From Thalassospira lucentensis (GTDB lineage Bacteria; Pseudomonadota; Alphaproteobacteria; Rhodospirillales; Thalassospiraceae), in NCBI RefSeq assembly GCF_011806425.1, contig NZ_JAATOV010000001.1, forward strand, positions 310,001-374,000: a stretch of 64,000 nucleotides of DNA, written 5' to 3'. The position numbers and the translations under genes were made by a program. Each line of letters begins with the position of its first letter. Positions within the stretch are counted from its first letter, which is position 1. Shown one piece after another: positions 50,587 through 55,508 of the stretch. The notes beneath the pieces are model-generated. The model was not told the origin of the DNA. It saw nothing but the letters and a program-made list of their open reading frames with translations, and searched no databases.

Positions 50587-51042
50587 TCAACGGGCGATAT
50601 TGTACCGTTCGATTTCGACCCCGACCGCTGCAACGTCTTCAAAGACGTCGAGCTTTTCAACCCGAACGATCACCTTGCGAACCCGCGTATCCGCAAGGCA
50701 CATATCCGCAAGTTTTTCCCCAAGAGTTTCCACAAGGTTCACATGACCATCTTGGCAAATACGGCGCGTGCCAACTACGAGGTCTTCGTAACTGAGCACG
50801 GTGGAAATATCGTCATTCTGAACACCGTCGCCTTCGATCACAGCCAGATCAAGGTTGATCCGAACGCGCTGTGGGGCTTCTTTTTCGTGATCATAAACCC
50901 CGATAGAGGTGTGCATCACCATATCGCGCACAAAAATGCGGCGCAGGCTGCCTGCAAGATCGGTCTTGGGCAATCCGCCATGGGACAGATCGGCAAAGGG
51001 CAATGTCGTGATGTTGGCATCCTGTTTGAGGCCTGCGGTCAT
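50587..51042 (-). CDS. folB: Dihydroneopterin aldolase family protein (resident copy)
   Basis: FolB makes 6-hydroxymethyl-dihydropterin and glycolaldehyde from dihydroneopterin in folate synthesis; some relatives (FolX) are epimerases of the triphosphate. The conserved residues are present: glutamate in YDHEKEAP (about 51-55), Y85 in LSYEDL, E105 in VNLVETLGEK and K130 in VRVEKLD. The ATG at 51042 is chosen because GGAAG lies eight bases upstream; an in-frame start at 51087 has none. Upstream lies the truncated SDR gene that used to precede it. A second FolB-like gene sits in the AT-rich block at 54.0 kb. Confidence 0.93.
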   Translation of the reverse strand: MTAGLKQDANITTLPFADLSHGGLPKTDLAGSLRRIFVRDMVMHTSIGVYDHEKEAPQRVRINLDLAVIEGDGVQNDDISTVLSYEDLVVGTRRICQDGHVNLVETLGEKLADMCLADTRVRKVIVRVEKLDVFEDVAAVGVEIERYNIAR

Positions 51043-51151
51043 ATTCCGGTCTTCCTTGTGCTGCTTTCGGGCATGGTCTTTGTCCATGCGCTTTAAGCCA
51101 GATGTCCGGTATACGCGCCTGACATTGATCTTTTAATATGGATCTCTGGCT

Positions 51152-51289
51152 TCATTCTTCTGGCTTATCTTCTTCGCCACTGGGGGCCCAATCAAGGTGC
51201 TGTCCGCCATCAAGAGCTAACATTTGCCCGGTGATGGCCGGCGCGGCAAGGAAAAACCGAACGGTGTCGCAAATCTCTTGTACCAAGAA
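51152..51289 (-). pseudogene. 3' remnant of a resident SDR (pteridine-reductase-like) gene
   Basis: Translating the minus strand gives about 45 codons ending in TGA at 51152-51154. They contain VQEICDTVRFFLAAPAITGQ and then MLALDGGQHLDWAPSGEED, which is the normal C-terminal end of a short-chain dehydrogenase. No start codon with context precedes it; an in-frame TAA is met at 51290-51292, exactly where the base composition changes to AT-rich. The 5' part of the gene, some 200 codons, is missing. An intact homologue with the same C-terminal pattern (VLVLDGGQSL) lies in the inserted block at 53.3 kb. Confidence 0.85.
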
Positions 51290-51679
51290 TTAGAGTGTTC
51301 TCGTTATTTATAAGGAAGAGTGTTGATTTTGCGCCCTATATTGAAGTTAGCTTAAACACGCCCTAATCAATCCAAGCAGGCAATGTGATACGTATCAATT
51401 TATAAGGTAGCTCAACTAGATTCGATTGAACCTAAACGCGACACGCGCGAAACAGCTAAGCTTGTCATCAACAAATACGGTTAACTGGACACCATAATTG
51501 TATTCGATTGTCGAATCTCATCAAAGTTCAATTTAGTTAACAACATCCAGGATCAAATATGTGGCGGCGAACTAAGCAGTAATCCAAACATGGCTGCCCA
51601 ACGTAATGCTAACTAACTTTCACAACAGAATATTTAACACCACTGACTGTGCCTAAACCTTTTAACGCGGGACAAATTA
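51290..51679. other. AT-rich noncoding left part of the inserted block
   Basis: About 390 bases with no supported gene, different in composition from the chromosome on its left. It should hold the promoter of the four-gene unit. A perfect palindrome TGATACGTATCA (51386-51397) and a dyad ATTCGA-TTG-TCGAAT (51502-51516) are possible regulator sites. No tRNA, integrase or terminal repeat was seen. Confidence 0.6.
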
Positions 51680-52378
51680 GTGCTAGCAATTGAAGAACTT
51701 GAGAGATTGATTAAACACCTCCCACGTAACGCCAAAGTCCTAGACGTTGGCTGCGGCCAAGGTCAAATATGTGATATTATTTTTAGGTTACGCAGCGATA
51801 TCAAGGTTCACGGTACAGACAAAACAGAACCTAAAAGAGTTCCAAACCAACTAAGTTTTAGAACGTGCAATTTTGAACACGAAAAAATTCCCTTTGAAGC
51901 CAATTCCTTTGATCTAGTGATTTGCCAACATGTTATTGAACACCTTTACAATTCGGTAAATCTATTTGGGGAGCTTGTCCGGGTAGCAAAATGCGGCGGA
52001 AACATATTTGTTGAAGCTCCATCAGATCACTCTTTGTGGTTTAGCTTTCCTTGGGCTCAGAACTGGCGACTTATTATGTCGTACTATGATGATCCGACGC
52101 ACGTTGGACGCCCTTGGACACCTCAAGGGCTTTATCGATTAGGACTTTTCTGGGGAGTGAGACCGGAAAGTGCAAAATACGAGTTTTCGCTTGTAAAATT
52201 GATATTTTTTATTCCACTAATGTTAATTGGTTGGCTGAGAAAAAATCCAGACCTAATTGTTAGCACTTGGTGGCAAGCCACAGGATGGGTATGCTTCTCT
52301 ACCTTTACAAAACCAGAAACTACTGAAGACGAACCGACATTCTCGTACGCTTCGTACAAAGGACACCCTCCGCTATAG
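51680..52378 (+). CDS. Class I SAM-dependent methyltransferase
   Basis: The 232-residue protein has motif I KVLDVGCGQGQICD (about 19-32) and an acidic second motif near HGTDKTEPK, then FDLVICQHVIEHL, a pattern of UbiE/COQ5-type methyltransferases acting on small molecules. Residues about 173-190 (VKLIFFIPLMLIGWL) are hydrophobic and may anchor it at the membrane. The start is a GTG with a weak binding site. Substrate unknown. It heads the four-gene unit of the inserted block and its AT-rich codon use differs from the surrounding chromosome. Confidence 0.85.
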   Translation: MLAIEELERLIKHLPRNAKVLDVGCGQGQICDIIFRLRSDIKVHGTDKTEPKRVPNQLSFRTCNFEHEKIPFEANSFDLVICQHVIEHLYNSVNLFGELVRVAKCGGNIFVEAPSDHSLWFSFPWAQNWRLIMSYYDDPTHVGRPWTPQGLYRLGLFWGVRPESAKYEFSLVKLIFFIPLMLIGWLRKNPDLIVSTWWQATGWVCFSTFTKPETTEDEPTFSYASYKGHPPL

Positions 52379-52388
52379 AGATTAAAAA

Positions 52389-53264
52389 ATGGAAATACTT
52401 CAAAACATTAGAATTATAGCTATACCTTCGTGGGTAAAGATAATCATCTATATTCTTTTGACAGTTCTTTTCGTATTCAACATTTACATTGGAGCAAGCG
52501 GAGTATTTGAGCACGGAATGAAAGATTGGGCAGAAGCCGCAACCAATCTAATGGGAGTACTACTTCCAATAATTATCATTTCAATATTATTTTCATTTTC
52601 GCATTCTGGCATTGATGCCTTGAAAGAGAAAACTGAGAGCCTTCTAGCATCCACCTTGCCGGAATACTTAAGCAGAATCGCCGAGGAGAACGGCGAGTTC
52701 TATGATCCCCGAACAACCTCAATTCCCAAGGACAAGAAACAACGGCACTCGCTTGTGACAACGAACCTTCACAAAAACCGTTGCTATTGTGACTATAAAA
52801 TCAAGGCACCAGACCTATGCCAACACGGCAACGACAGCTGTGACATAACACATTTCAAAGAAATTGTTGTTCGAGTAGAATTGAATGTACGAAAAGTAAA
52901 TTTCAACCTGTTTCTAGAAAAAGACAATATCGAAAAAAATAGCGTTATGAAGCATGGTGACAAAGAAAACGTTTTGGGAAAATCATCAAAAATATTTGAA
53001 CTATTTCACCATTCTTCCAGTGGAAGCTCTGGTTTATCTCAAGAAAACACTGGAAATGACTACATCACTTACCGTTTCAACAATACGATTCTTGAGAGAC
53101 ATATAGGAGGAAAACTTTACTACTGCATTGTAGCAACTGCCAACCTCAAACCGGATTTCTTATGGGACCCGAGCGAAAAGCTATACTTCTGCCAAGATAT
53201 GATGTTCATGGTTCGATCATTCTACTCGGAAAACCCTAACCTGTTCTCGTCCACAAACAAGTAG
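52389..53264 (+). CDS. Two-helix membrane protein of unknown function
   Basis: No family was recognised. The 291-residue protein has two hydrophobic helices (about 15-36 and 51-70) at the N-terminus and then a hydrophilic domain of about 215 residues. That domain contains a cluster of cysteines and histidines, CYCDYKIKAPDLCQHGNDSC (about 132-151), which may bind metal, and the serine-rich HHSSSGSSGLSQENTG. The two helices would leave both ends on one side of the membrane; the cytoplasm is likelier. It begins ten bases after the methyltransferase gene. Confidence 0.8.
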   Translation: MEILQNIRIIAIPSWVKIIIYILLTVLFVFNIYIGASGVFEHGMKDWAEAATNLMGVLLPIIIISILFSFSHSGIDALKEKTESLLASTLPEYLSRIAEENGEFYDPRTTSIPKDKKQRHSLVTTNLHKNRCYCDYKIKAPDLCQHGNDSCDITHFKEIVVRVELNVRKVNFNLFLEKDNIEKNSVMKHGDKENVLGKSSKIFELFHHSSSGSSGLSQENTGNDYITYRFNNTILERHIGGKLYYCIVATANLKPDFLWDPSEKLYFCQDMMFMVRSFYSENPNLFSSTNK

Positions 53265-53273
53265 AAAGCATTC

Positions 53274-54026
53274 ATGAAGTCAGTACTCATTACCGGCGGC
53301 GCAGCTCGCATTGGCAAGGCACTTTCAAAGTTTTTTGCTACCAATGGATGGAAAGTTCATGTCCATTACAATAGCTCTGAGAAATCAGCAATTCGTCTTC
53401 AAAAGTATATCAATGAGAAAAATGGGGAAATTAGAATCATAAAATGCGACCTGGGAAACATTGACGAAATTAAAGAGAAATTTCTACCAGTTTTTCTAGA
53501 TGAAAAAATAGATTTGCTGATAAATAACGCATCAATATTTGAGTATGACTCCCCCGACTCAATGGAAACGGAAATCTTCCTAAAATCTATGCGGGTAAAT
53601 ATACTTGCCCCCACAAAAATATCAGAAATATACTACAACTCAACACTTGACCAACCAAAGGACAAGTGCATTATAAATATACTTGATAACAAAGTATTCT
53701 CGCTAAATCCGGATTTCTATTCCTATACACTCGCAAAGTCAGCCTTGCTATCAGCAACGAAAATGCAGGCAATGTCTTTCGCTCCGAGTATGCGCGTTTG
53801 TGGCATTGCGCCAAGCGTAACTTTACCTAGTGGCGCTCAGACGCAAACCGACTTTCAGATCTCCCACCCTCTCACCTTGACAAGAAAAGGCTGTTCTCCT
53901 GAAGACATATGTAAAGGCGCATATTACATCGCAAACAACCCTATATATAATGGGCAAGTCCTTGTTTTAGACGGAGGACAATCATTAACAAACCTAAGTC
54001 GCGACGTAGCTTTCCTCGACGAATGA
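53274..54026 (+). CDS. Pteridine-reductase-type short-chain dehydrogenase
   Basis: The 250-residue SDR has the TGxxxRIG nucleotide motif (TGGAARIG, 7-14) that is typical of FolM and PTR1 in place of the usual TGxxxGIG, and NNAS at 84-87. The catalytic residues D138, Y151 and K155 have the same spacing (13 and 4) as D181, Y194 and K198 of Leishmania PTR1, where aspartate replaces the usual SDR serine. This argues for reduction of dihydropterins or a related substrate. It ends 18 bases before a FolB-like gene, the same pairing as the truncated resident SDR with folB. Confidence 0.86.
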   Translation: MKSVLITGGAARIGKALSKFFATNGWKVHVHYNSSEKSAIRLQKYINEKNGEIRIIKCDLGNIDEIKEKFLPVFLDEKIDLLINNASIFEYDSPDSMETEIFLKSMRVNILAPTKISEIYYNSTLDQPKDKCIINILDNKVFSLNPDFYSYTLAKSALLSATKMQAMSFAPSMRVCGIAPSVTLPSGAQTQTDFQISHPLTLTRKGCSPEDICKGAYYIANNPIYNGQVLVLDGGQSLTNLSRDVAFLDE

Positions 54027-54044
54027 ACAAAAACAGGTCTATCG

Positions 54045-54422
54045 ATGGAAAACCACCTAATAATATCAGAACGGAAAATAACACTGAGTAAATATACTAT
54101 TCCATTCTGGATAGGAATCCATGCATTTGAAAAAAAAGAAAGACAAAATGTATCAATAAACATAGAACTTATTATTTCAAATGACATATCACCACAAGAT
54201 GACGACATAACATCAACAGTCGACTATGATTATTTAAGGTTAGGAATCAAGAAAATTAGCGACACGGAAGTGTTCAACCTACAAGAAACACTCTGCGAGA
54301 GAATTTTAGAGCTATGCCTTGAAAATGAAGGCGTCGAAAAAGCAACGGTAAAAACAAGCAAAATTGACGTTTACCCAGACTGTGATGCAGTGAGTTTCCA
54401 AGCATCAGCCAGAAAACCTTGA
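54045..54422 (+). CDS. Dihydroneopterin aldolase/epimerase-like protein (second copy)
   Basis: The 125-residue protein is a tunnelling-fold relative of FolB and FolX. The family residues are kept: E29 (HAFEKKE), Y61 (VDYDYL), E81 (NLQETLCER) and K106 (KTSKIDVY). It is markedly different in composition and sequence from the resident folB at 50.6 kb, so it is a xenologue and not a recent duplicate. With the adjacent pteridine reductase it could make dihydromonapterin-type or tetrahydropterin cofactors; which of aldolase or epimerase activity it has cannot be decided. Confidence 0.86.
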   Translation: MENHLIISERKITLSKYTIPFWIGIHAFEKKERQNVSINIELIISNDISPQDDDITSTVDYDYLRLGIKKISDTEVFNLQETLCERILELCLENEGVEKATVKTSKIDVYPDCDAVSFQASARKP

Positions 54423-54428
54423 ACCTCA

Positions 54429-55391
54429 TTATGCAGCGACAAGCTGGAAGATATACACAAAGTAGGCAATGACAAAGGCGACACCAGTGATGCGCGAAAT
54501 TTTACGAAACGCATAAGCCAGCAGCAACAGGGCGACCGTGACCGCCAGCATGATCCAGATATCGGATGTTAAAATCTGTGCGGGAACCGGGATCGGGGTA
54601 ATCATAGAGACACCACCGATAATCACCAAAAGGTTCAAAAGGTTTGAGCCAAACACATTGCCCAGCGCCACATCCGCATGCCCCCGGAAGGCTGCAACCA
54701 TTGAAGCCGCCAGTTCTGGCAAGGACGTGCCAAAGGCAACCAATGTTAAACCAATAACCGCCTCGGAGACGCCAAACTGACGGGCAACGGTCACGCCGCC
54801 CTCGACCAGCCATTCGGCCCCAAACATCAAACCAACGATCCCGACCAAAGTGGCGATGATTGGTTTCATCCAGCCGGTGGGAACGTCGCCGACTTCATCG
54901 ACTTCGTCGTGATGAAGTTCAGTGGCCTCGGTCGGCATTTTTTTATCATGGCGATAGGTTAAGACCCAAATGGCGGCCAATACACACAGCATCAGCGCGC
55001 CAGCCCAACGGTTGATTTCGCCAAACATGCACAGCCCGACAAACAAAACCGTGCCCAGCAACATGGCCCCGCCATCACGCACAACCGTCATCCGGCTTGC
55101 CGAGATAGGTTTTAAAACCGCAACCGCGCCCAAAATCAGCAATATATTGGCGATGTTGGATCCGACCACATTGCCCATCGCAATATCGGCGGTGTCTTTT
55201 AGTGCAGCGTTCAAGGACACCACAAATTCCGGCGCAGACGTCCCGGCGGCAACAATGGTCAATCCGACGATAACCTTGGACACGCCCATCAAAAGCGCAA
55301 GGCCAACAGCGCCCCGAACGATAAATTCGCCACCGGCTGTTAACAGGACAAGACCGGCGATAATTTGCAGATAAGGGATAAACTGTTCCAA
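54429..55391 (-). CDS. Calcium/sodium antiporter (YrbG type, CaCA family)
   Basis: The 320-residue membrane protein has two homologous halves with the alpha-repeat motifs: GLTIVAAGTSAPEFVVSLNAA and GNVVGSNIANILLILG in the first, and GLTLVAFGTSLPELAASMVAA and GNVFGSNLLNLLVIIG in the second. These carry the ion-binding E and N/S residues. A charged loop (HHDEVDEVGDVP) separates the halves. The TTG at 55391 is chosen because homology begins just after it and 320 residues is the usual YrbG size; a longer in-frame extension includes a hairpin region and is unlikely. It converges with the inserted block. Confidence 0.9.
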   Translation of the reverse strand: MEQFIPYLQIIAGLVLLTAGGEFIVRGAVGLALLMGVSKVIVGLTIVAAGTSAPEFVVSLNAALKDTADIAMGNVVGSNIANILLILGAVAVLKPISASRMTVVRDGGAMLLGTVLFVGLCMFGEINRWAGALMLCVLAAIWVLTYRHDKKMPTEATELHHDEVDEVGDVPTGWMKPIIATLVGIVGLMFGAEWLVEGGVTVARQFGVSEAVIGLTLVAFGTSLPELAASMVAAFRGHADVALGNVFGSNLLNLLVIIGGVSMITPIPVPAQILTSDIWIMLAVTVALLLLAYAFRKISRITGVAFVIAYFVYIFQLVAA

Positions 55392-55424
55392 GATAACTTT
55401 GCTCGTCGTGATTATATTGTTTTT

Positions 55425-55442
55425 AAAGCCCCCCGGGGCTTT
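55425..55442 (-). repeat. Hairpin before the antiporter gene
   Basis: AAAGCCCC (55425-55432) and GGGGCTTT (55435-55442) are separated by two bases, so it can form a long stem with a small loop only if some inner bases stay unpaired. It lies about 35 bases upstream of the chosen start, in the likely leader of the message. Confidence 0.5.
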
Positions 55443-55496
55443 GCCGGGCACGCGGAACATGGCATCGCACAAGATGAATGGCAAGTCATCAGAGAA

Positions 55497-55508
55497 TGAC
55501 AATTGTCA
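55497..55508. promoter_or_regulatory. TGACAATTGTCA palindrome
   Basis: A perfect 12-base palindrome in the divergent region between the calcium/sodium and CPA2 antiporter genes. It could be an operator for one or both; no regulator is assigned. Confidence 0.45.

Follow-up and report, generated by a model that had tools for sequence, protein, structure and literature searches.

A putative tetrahydropterin cassette at the resident pteridine reductase-folB locus of Thalassospira lucentensis

Why should a block of AT-rich DNA that carries a pteridine reductase-type gene and a folB-like gene lie exactly where a Thalassospira genome has lost most of its own pteridine reductase gene, beside its own folB? 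In this study, we address this question in a stretch of 64,000 nucleotides of Thalassospira lucentensis (assembly GCF_011806425.1, contig NZ_JAATOV010000001.1, positions 310,001 to 374,000), hereafter the window, in which an islet of four genes interrupts the resident locus formed by a short-chain dehydrogenase/reductase (SDR) gene and folB (Table 1). The islet encodes, in this order, a methyltransferase, a protein with two transmembrane helices (two-TM protein), an SDR and a FolB-like protein. We propose, with a probability of roughly 0.6, that it is a tetrahydropterin cassette acquired by horizontal transfer, which has displaced the resident pteridine reductase gene at its own locus. As judged from the sequences, its core would consist of the two-TM protein, a divergent PruA/FolM-type SDR and a FolB/FolX-type protein, with the methyltransferase riding along.

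The islet and the gene that it replaced

The islet is 3,148 bp long and has a GC content of 0.395, against a median of 0.544 (standard deviation 0.031) for 3,148-bp intervals across the 64 kb. The lowest of these intervals lies on the islet, and so do all 1-kb intervals (taken in 500-bp steps) with less than 45% GC, none of which occurs elsewhere in the window. Its four plus-strand open reading frames (ORFs) are intact and form one tight run with gaps of 10, 9, and 18 bp. Comparison of the DNA with congeners placed the left break between positions 51280 and 51281 and the right break between 54428 and 54429, where it adjoins the stop codon of a gene named by eye as Na/Ca-exchanger-like. For the base-by-base comparison six congeners were taken, of which two were mis-parsed and dropped; the four that were parsed cleanly have 690-736 bp in the islet's place.

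What was lost is well defined. The islet removed 214 of the 256 codons of the resident SDR gene and left folB untouched. In our genus sample, composed of 28 other genomes and the genome studied here, a folB orthologue was present in 29/29, and a full-length SDR with the TGX3RXG motif was found in the folB locus of all 28 congeners. This motif, which stands in place of the TGX3GXG of other SDRs, together with YX3K defines pteridine reductases (PMC13259868 and PMC1971073). One congener copy scored against the NCBIfam model NF006597 reached 376.8 bits (cut-off 281). On the strength of motif and score, we class the resident SDR as PruA/FolM-type, a label that does not imply orthology to Agrobacterium PruA. 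The original prediction, made from the window alone, had described an AT-rich block of four closely spaced plus-strand genes beside a truncated SDR gene and an intact folB, with the incoming SDR/FolB pair running opposite to the resident pair. This description was borne out, the checks suggested with it showing a low GC by interval and an uninterrupted SDR-folB locus in relatives, and the further proposal of a xenologous pterin module is supported by the composition, by the intact SDR of the 28 congeners and by SDR trees in which the islet protein falls outside the resident clade.

Moreover, the incoming gene may take over from the gene that was broken. When a congener SDR was searched in the T. 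lucentensis genome, the islet SDR was the best match (130 bits) and the next full-length SDR followed at 80 bits. The six other SDRs read in this genome all have TGX3GXG, and the islet SDR is the only one with TGX3RXG among those read, the 19 weaker of the 27 matches being left out. Therefore, the islet appears to displace the gene that it interrupted. It might be argued instead that an AT-rich operon landed here by illegitimate recombination and that the match between its SDR and FolB genes and those of the target is coincidental. The opposite orientation and the lack of repeats at the edges would suit such an accident, and the resident SDR may be dispensable; it fits poorly with an incoming SDR that is the sole TGX3RXG SDR among those read in the genome, and with the finding, described below, that 8/40 Brevundimonas genomes have a different SDR type at the corresponding place next to folB. 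We consider an accidental landing unlikely. A mobile element was also rejected as an explanation, since no direct repeats flank the islet edges and no transposase, recombinase or insertion sequence was recognised by eye among the window ORFs. Taken as it stands, the islet reads as horizontally acquired DNA that has kept its reading frames intact.

Table 1. Features of the resident locus and of the islet (positions in the window)
Feature	Position	Strand	Basis
Resident folB, intact	50587..51087	-	Pfam FolB E 8.3e-24; NCBIfam folB 79.8 bits, cut-off 72.15
Resident SDR remnant, last 42 codons and stop	51152..51280	-	93% identity to residues 215-256 of a congener's 256-residue SDR
Foreign-looking AT-rich islet, replacing ~0.7 kb of the resident locus	51281..54428	+	Breakpoints against congeners; GC
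AT-rich leader without assigned gene	51281..51679	+	No plus-strand ORF of at least 60 aa
Putative class I S-adenosylmethionine-dependent methyltransferase, 232 aa	51680..52378	+	Pfam Methyltransf_31/11/23, best E 1.1e-14
Two-TM protein, 291 aa	52389..53264	+	Transmembrane hairpin 14-40 and 45-70, helix 74-98, beta-rich C-domain
Putative pteridine reductase-type SDR, 250 aa	53274..54026	+	NF006597 E 6.3e-66; TGX3RXG and YX3K kept; trees
FolB-like protein of the aldolase/epimerase family, 125 aa	54045..54422	+	Pfam FolB E 2.9e-19
Conserved right flank, Na/Ca-exchanger-like gene ending at islet edge	54429..55502	-	ORF; flank aligns in congeners; function by eye
aa, amino acids.

The proteins of the islet

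By its motifs, the islet SDR would be a pteridine reductase of the PruA/FolM type and is predicted to reduce a dihydropterin with reduced nicotinamide adenine dinucleotide phosphate (NADPH). TGGAARIG at residue 7 supplies TGX3RXG, and Y151-K155 is in place, as noted at the outset. NF006597 is the best NCBIfam match for both the resident-type and the islet SDR, the latter at 222.3 bits and under the cut-off; SDRs found near two-TM genes in other genomes reached 297.5 (G469), 291.9 (Brevundimonas G951), and 251.3 bits (Litoreibacter). Among PDB proteins, the islet SDR came nearest to FolM entries, 5tgd matching with 133 bits. In two trees, the second with four long-branch rows left out, the islet SDR lay outside the resident SDR clade and grouped with the SDRs of the Litoreibacter, Palleronia, and Rhodovulum two-TM loci (supports 98/95 and 99/98, respectively). 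A first scan of genome contigs with the islet SDR gave no confirmed relative.

The FolB-like protein exceeds the domain cut-offs of PF02152 (70.1 bits against 31.8) and TIGR00526 (48.3 against 45.05) and lies under both equivalog cut-offs, those of FolB (40.9 against 72.15) and FolX (46.7 against 152). Family residues are kept, as expected from the first inspection, with E29, Y61, E81, and K106 among the columns invariant in five aligned members. Given that FolM can reduce dihydrofolate and that dihydroneopterin aldolase (FolB) acts in folate synthesis (PMC1971073), the pair could be spare folate genes that serve tetrahydrofolate synthesis or dihydrofolate reduction, with their neighbours as passengers. 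Against this stand the intact resident folB and the shortfall from the folB equivalog cut-off, and the occurrence of a two-TM gene next to such a pair in six genera would be left unexplained. We therefore regard the folate explanation as improbable.

The two-TM protein has no family model over cut-off, the closest Pfam score being that of Cauli_AT (14.1 bits against 24.8), and ncbifam, padloc, and phrogs gave no match at E 0.1. Its AlphaFold2 model has a predicted local distance difference test score (pLDDT) of 73.1 and a predicted template modelling score (pTM) of 0.64, and the C-domain alone reached 79.2 and 0.77. At E<=0.001 Foldseek searches of the PDB, with the complete model and with the C-domain, and of BFVD, with the C-domain, found nothing; fold matches in the PDB to an Arp2/3 subunit, Bet v 1-like and Spa15-like proteins had TM-scores below 0.4 and were not used, and a profile search of PDB sequences returned nothing credible. 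The C-domain is probably cytoplasmic, as weakly suggested by the charge of the interhelix loop, in which acidic residues outnumber basic ones in 4/10 homologues (two of them near-identical) and equal them in three, the loop being not measurable in the other three. The original prediction had pointed to a Cys/His cluster in this protein, and here it did not hold as a family feature: in the aligned homologues one Cys column recurs in 9/10 and two His columns in 7/10 each, and the cluster was rejected as a metal site since it is not conserved.

Known pterin hydroxylases carry an iron site. One could imagine that the two-TM protein is itself a pterin-dependent enzyme, whose cofactor is supplied by the SDR, the FolB-like protein and the methyltransferase, and it is true that this one uncharacterised protein is repeatedly linked to varying pterin enzymes. 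The best-kept His columns reach 7/10 homologues, so an iron site of that kind is unlikely in the two-TM protein, and 3/11 loci have no pterin genes nearby. We give the idea of a cofactor client little credence.

In the family of genome G469, loci L052-L056 encode apparently soluble proteins, ~190 aa long when a clear start could be assigned, that have the C-domain of the two-TM family with its motif DFLxxPxxQLYW. Three of these loci were searched more widely and had no SDR, FolB, or 6-pyruvoyl-tetrahydropterin synthase (PTPS) match, and the one soluble protein scanned had no Pfam match.

With regard to the methyltransferase, the comparison of loci given below suggests that it is accessory and lies outside the recurring core. 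A short frame at window positions 51651-51695, just upstream of the methyltransferase start, reads VPKPFNAGQISASN and then stops, overlapping that start in another frame; the N-terminus of the enzyme is tentative. The leader upstream may hold the promoter. A scan of viral contigs with the methyltransferase found nothing.

Recurrence of the two-TM gene with pterin genes

The two-TM family is small, patchy, rare and uncharacterised. Searches with the protein and its profile, in genome draws that overlap, found the gene in 1/297 genomes of the order (the T. lucentensis genome itself), 3/385 of the class (this genome, G469 and, weakly, G352) and 2/398 of the phylum (this genome and Brevundimonas G951). 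At the family level it was present in 1/119 genomes around G951 (G951 itself) and in 1/345 around Palleronia (Palleronia, the centre of the draw), and the 82 genomes of the G469 family gave two strong matches and five weak ones to the C-domain only. A pattern scan of an 84,980-species collection yielded eight two-TM loci, two of which were G1211 and G951 again. In all, we counted 11 loci: the window, G469, AAP38/G1211, Brevundimonas G951, Litoreibacter, Palleronia pelagia, P. salina, Rhodovulum, Roseovarius, Aurantimonas, and G352.

An SDR and a FolB gene lie beside the two-TM gene at 8/11 loci and in 6/9 genera. The window order of two-TM, SDR, and FolB genes is common to four loci of three genera (Litoreibacter, both Palleronia species, and Rhodovulum, where the two-TM gene is broken). 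In G951 the order is FolB-SDR-2TM-PTPS-FolB, and in G469 and AAP38, two species of one genus, an SDR-methyltransferase pair converges on a two-TM-FolB pair. These two are the only other two-TM loci with a methyltransferase, in a different arrangement, and their enzyme has no convincing similarity to that of the islet (BLASTP E 0.081). A methyltransferase conserved across two-TM loci was rejected on this ground, the 32% identity obtained having come from a forced global alignment. Other loci have other companions: PTPS and a second FolB in G951, and in Litoreibacter a flavin adenine dinucleotide (FAD)/nicotinamide adenine dinucleotide (NAD) oxidoreductase gene that touches the two-TM gene; beside the Palleronia pelagia set no methyltransferase, PTPS, or FAD oxidoreductase was seen. 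Since the accessory enzymes differ among loci, the four-gene set resolves into a three-gene core of two-TM, SDR, and FolB genes plus an exchangeable enzyme. Thus, of the four-gene system first proposed, the core stands as a conserved neighbourhood that occurs together elsewhere, and the methyltransferase does not belong to what is constant.

The genus Brevundimonas may offer a parallel, by analogy, to the exchange seen in the islet. Resident folB is present in 40/41 of its genomes. Among those 40, 31 have the common SDR type next to folB and eight (L142, L143, L144, L146, L147, L151, L152, and L045, G951 included) a G951-like one, and in one the type is unresolved at a contig end. The G951-like type was assigned by score and four of the eight were placed on a tree, where G951 and the three others form one group (98/85). 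All eight carry PTPS between SDR and folB; six have an extra FolB and two have none, and the two-TM gene occurs in one. PTPS also follows folB in two Brevundimonas genomes with the common SDR. The SDR-PTPS-folB region of this genus is in itself a variable pterin locus.

Possible function and relation to known pterin systems

It is possible to outline how the cassette would work. The FolB-like protein would supply or epimerise dihydroneopterin or dihydromonapterin, and the islet SDR would reduce that pterin to its tetrahydro form and so would now be the source of the strain's tetrahydropterin; the methyltransferase may methylate the pterin side chain. The two-TM protein would most likely be a membrane partner of this synthesis, as an anchor, an exit route for the pterin or a membrane reader. 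The resulting pterin might be passed to the PruR-like protein and histidine kinase that the strain itself encodes. In the described system, the product of PruA, a tetrahydropterin, arrives in the periplasm and, on binding PruR, controls a regulator in the membrane (PMC13259868). In the T. lucentensis genome, ~380 kb from the islet, a PruR-like ORF of 166 aa (159 aa tested) matches PF00174 with 26.5 bits over a cut-off of 24 and adjoins, downstream, a 498-aa histidine kinase (HATPase_c 71.2 bits); a signal peptide and a transmembrane segment were recognised by eye. A PruR-like protein and kinase are likewise present in the one congener read, and short PF00174 matches in frames of 155-191 aa occur in 24/29 genus genomes, this one included, with five under the cut-off.

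Several findings weigh against the proposal of a displacing tetrahydropterin cassette. Firstly, the two-TM loci of Roseovarius, Aurantimonas, and G352 have no SDR or FolB within ~8 kb, so the two-TM protein is not always paired with a pteridine reductase; TGX3RXG is missing from the top two SDR matches of Roseovarius (of 5) and of Aurantimonas (of 8), and the G352 homologue, also alone, is distant. Secondly, the phylogeny is uneven. The islet SDR sits on a long branch and is of unusual composition. SDRs from two-TM loci fall into more than one group: those of G469 and AAP38 lie apart, and the G951 SDR attaches to the group of the islet SDR in one of the two trees only, with weak support (85/79). 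The islet FolB shares 31% identity with the resident FolB and just 18-20% with those of G469 and G951, and the three-gene core is for this reason not one co-inherited unit. Thirdly, the change of SDR type in Brevundimonas may have run in either direction. Fourthly, no fold match backs pterin binding by the two-TM protein. Lastly, the 498-aa kinase lacks the WX7E motif and, according to the sections of the 2026 review used here, PruR-DcpA/DTB regulators are absent from Caulobacteraceae (PMC13259868); consequently, such signalling cannot be the general role of the cassette.

Compared with the PruA-PruR-DcpA/DTB system, the islet shares an SDR with TGX3RXG and YX3K in a genome that has a PruR-like gene with a kinase downstream, and it differs in an SDR that lies outside the resident clade, in the kinase motif and in the two-TM protein, which the parts of PMC13259868 consulted do not mention. 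As in the FolX-FolM pair of E. coli and Pseudomonas, an epimerase/aldolase-family protein, here one that weakly matches both the FolX and FolB models, is combined with a FolM-type reductase; in contrast, the islet protein is below both equivalog cut-offs, and its gene shares a run of four with methyltransferase and membrane-protein genes. The folE-SDR-folB set of a Sphingomonas parapaucimobilis plasmid has SDR and FolB genes adjacent but includes folE, and the two-TM protein had no match in the plasmid collection. The PTPS-SDR-FolB sets of Brevundimonas resemble the islet in having SDR and FolB-type genes at the SDR position beside resident folB, and differ in PTPS, in the two-TM gene (1/8) and in the lack of a methyltransferase in the G951 run, the one listed in full. 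SDR-FolB neighbours are ordinary, in one case with dihydropteroate synthase between them, and this adjacency, like the clustering of folM-like SDRs with pterin genes reported in 2007 (PMC1971073), is already known. Plasmid FolB genes beside methanopterin-type genes in Azospirillum and Phyllobacterium were set aside as belonging to another context.

SLATT-type proteins are two-TM effectors. The islet could alternatively serve in defence or as a membrane-effector unit, with the two-TM protein as effector responding to a signal produced by the pterin enzymes. Such a role would agree with the small, patchy islet and the layout of two helices and a C-domain, with PIN-type genes (by eye) near the Roseovarius and Rhodovulum copies, and with a weak match of one homologue to the PADLOC CARF-TM model (E 0.0061, 13.7 bits). 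No PADLOC match at E 0.1 was obtained for the window two-TM protein or for 4/5 homologues, and the islet proteins together gave just a match of the methyltransferase to mad2 (30 bits) and one of 12.2 bits for the SDR. SLATT Pfam models matched neither the window protein at E 0.1 nor three homologues at E 0.5. Moreover, the family was not found in phages (searched with the window protein only), plasmids, or IMG/VR, and a phage, plasmid, or viral source of the gene was rejected. We think a defence role very improbable.

Returning to the tetrahydropterin cassette, a wider idea can be offered as a tentative possibility. The alphaproteobacterial SDR-folB locus may be a switch point for whole pterin-type cassettes, through which close relatives would come to make chemically different tetrahydropterins; the two-TM family would serve them as a membrane component of their own, perhaps as the missing exit route or as a membrane-bound reader of the pterin, and the dialect would depend on which accessory enzyme is present, a methyltransferase, PTPS, or FAD oxidoreductase. 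According to the parts of the 2026 review used here, pterins still have no known efflux system, it is unclear which pterin acts as the signal, and a 2'-O-methylmonapterin was put forward for Agrobacterium (PMC13259868). A mobile SDR/FolB/two-TM/methyltransferase set would give concrete genes for the questions of efflux, of the signalling pterin and of methylated pterins. Should the SDR differences of 8/40 Brevundimonas genomes also stem from exchanges, the type of pterin produced would vary and not be fixed. In literature searched by title and abstract opening, with most subscription journals outside coverage, there was no report of a two-TM protein tied to SDR/FolB genes or of pruA displacement, which is weak evidence of novelty.

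Two kinds of plasmid loci were noted besides. On a Comamonas plasmid (L072) and a Methylobacterium nodulans plasmid (L073), SDR/FolB or folE/SDR sets have an annotated S-adenosylmethionine-dependent methyltransferase nearby, which may be another hint of methylated pterins. At L048, L069, L070, and L071, an annotated PruR-like protein and a sensor kinase or ATP-binding protein lie beside or near an SDR, and these could possibly be plasmid-borne pterin sensing sets; on the three Sulfitobacter plasmids with PruR-like/SDR sets, folE2 is near.

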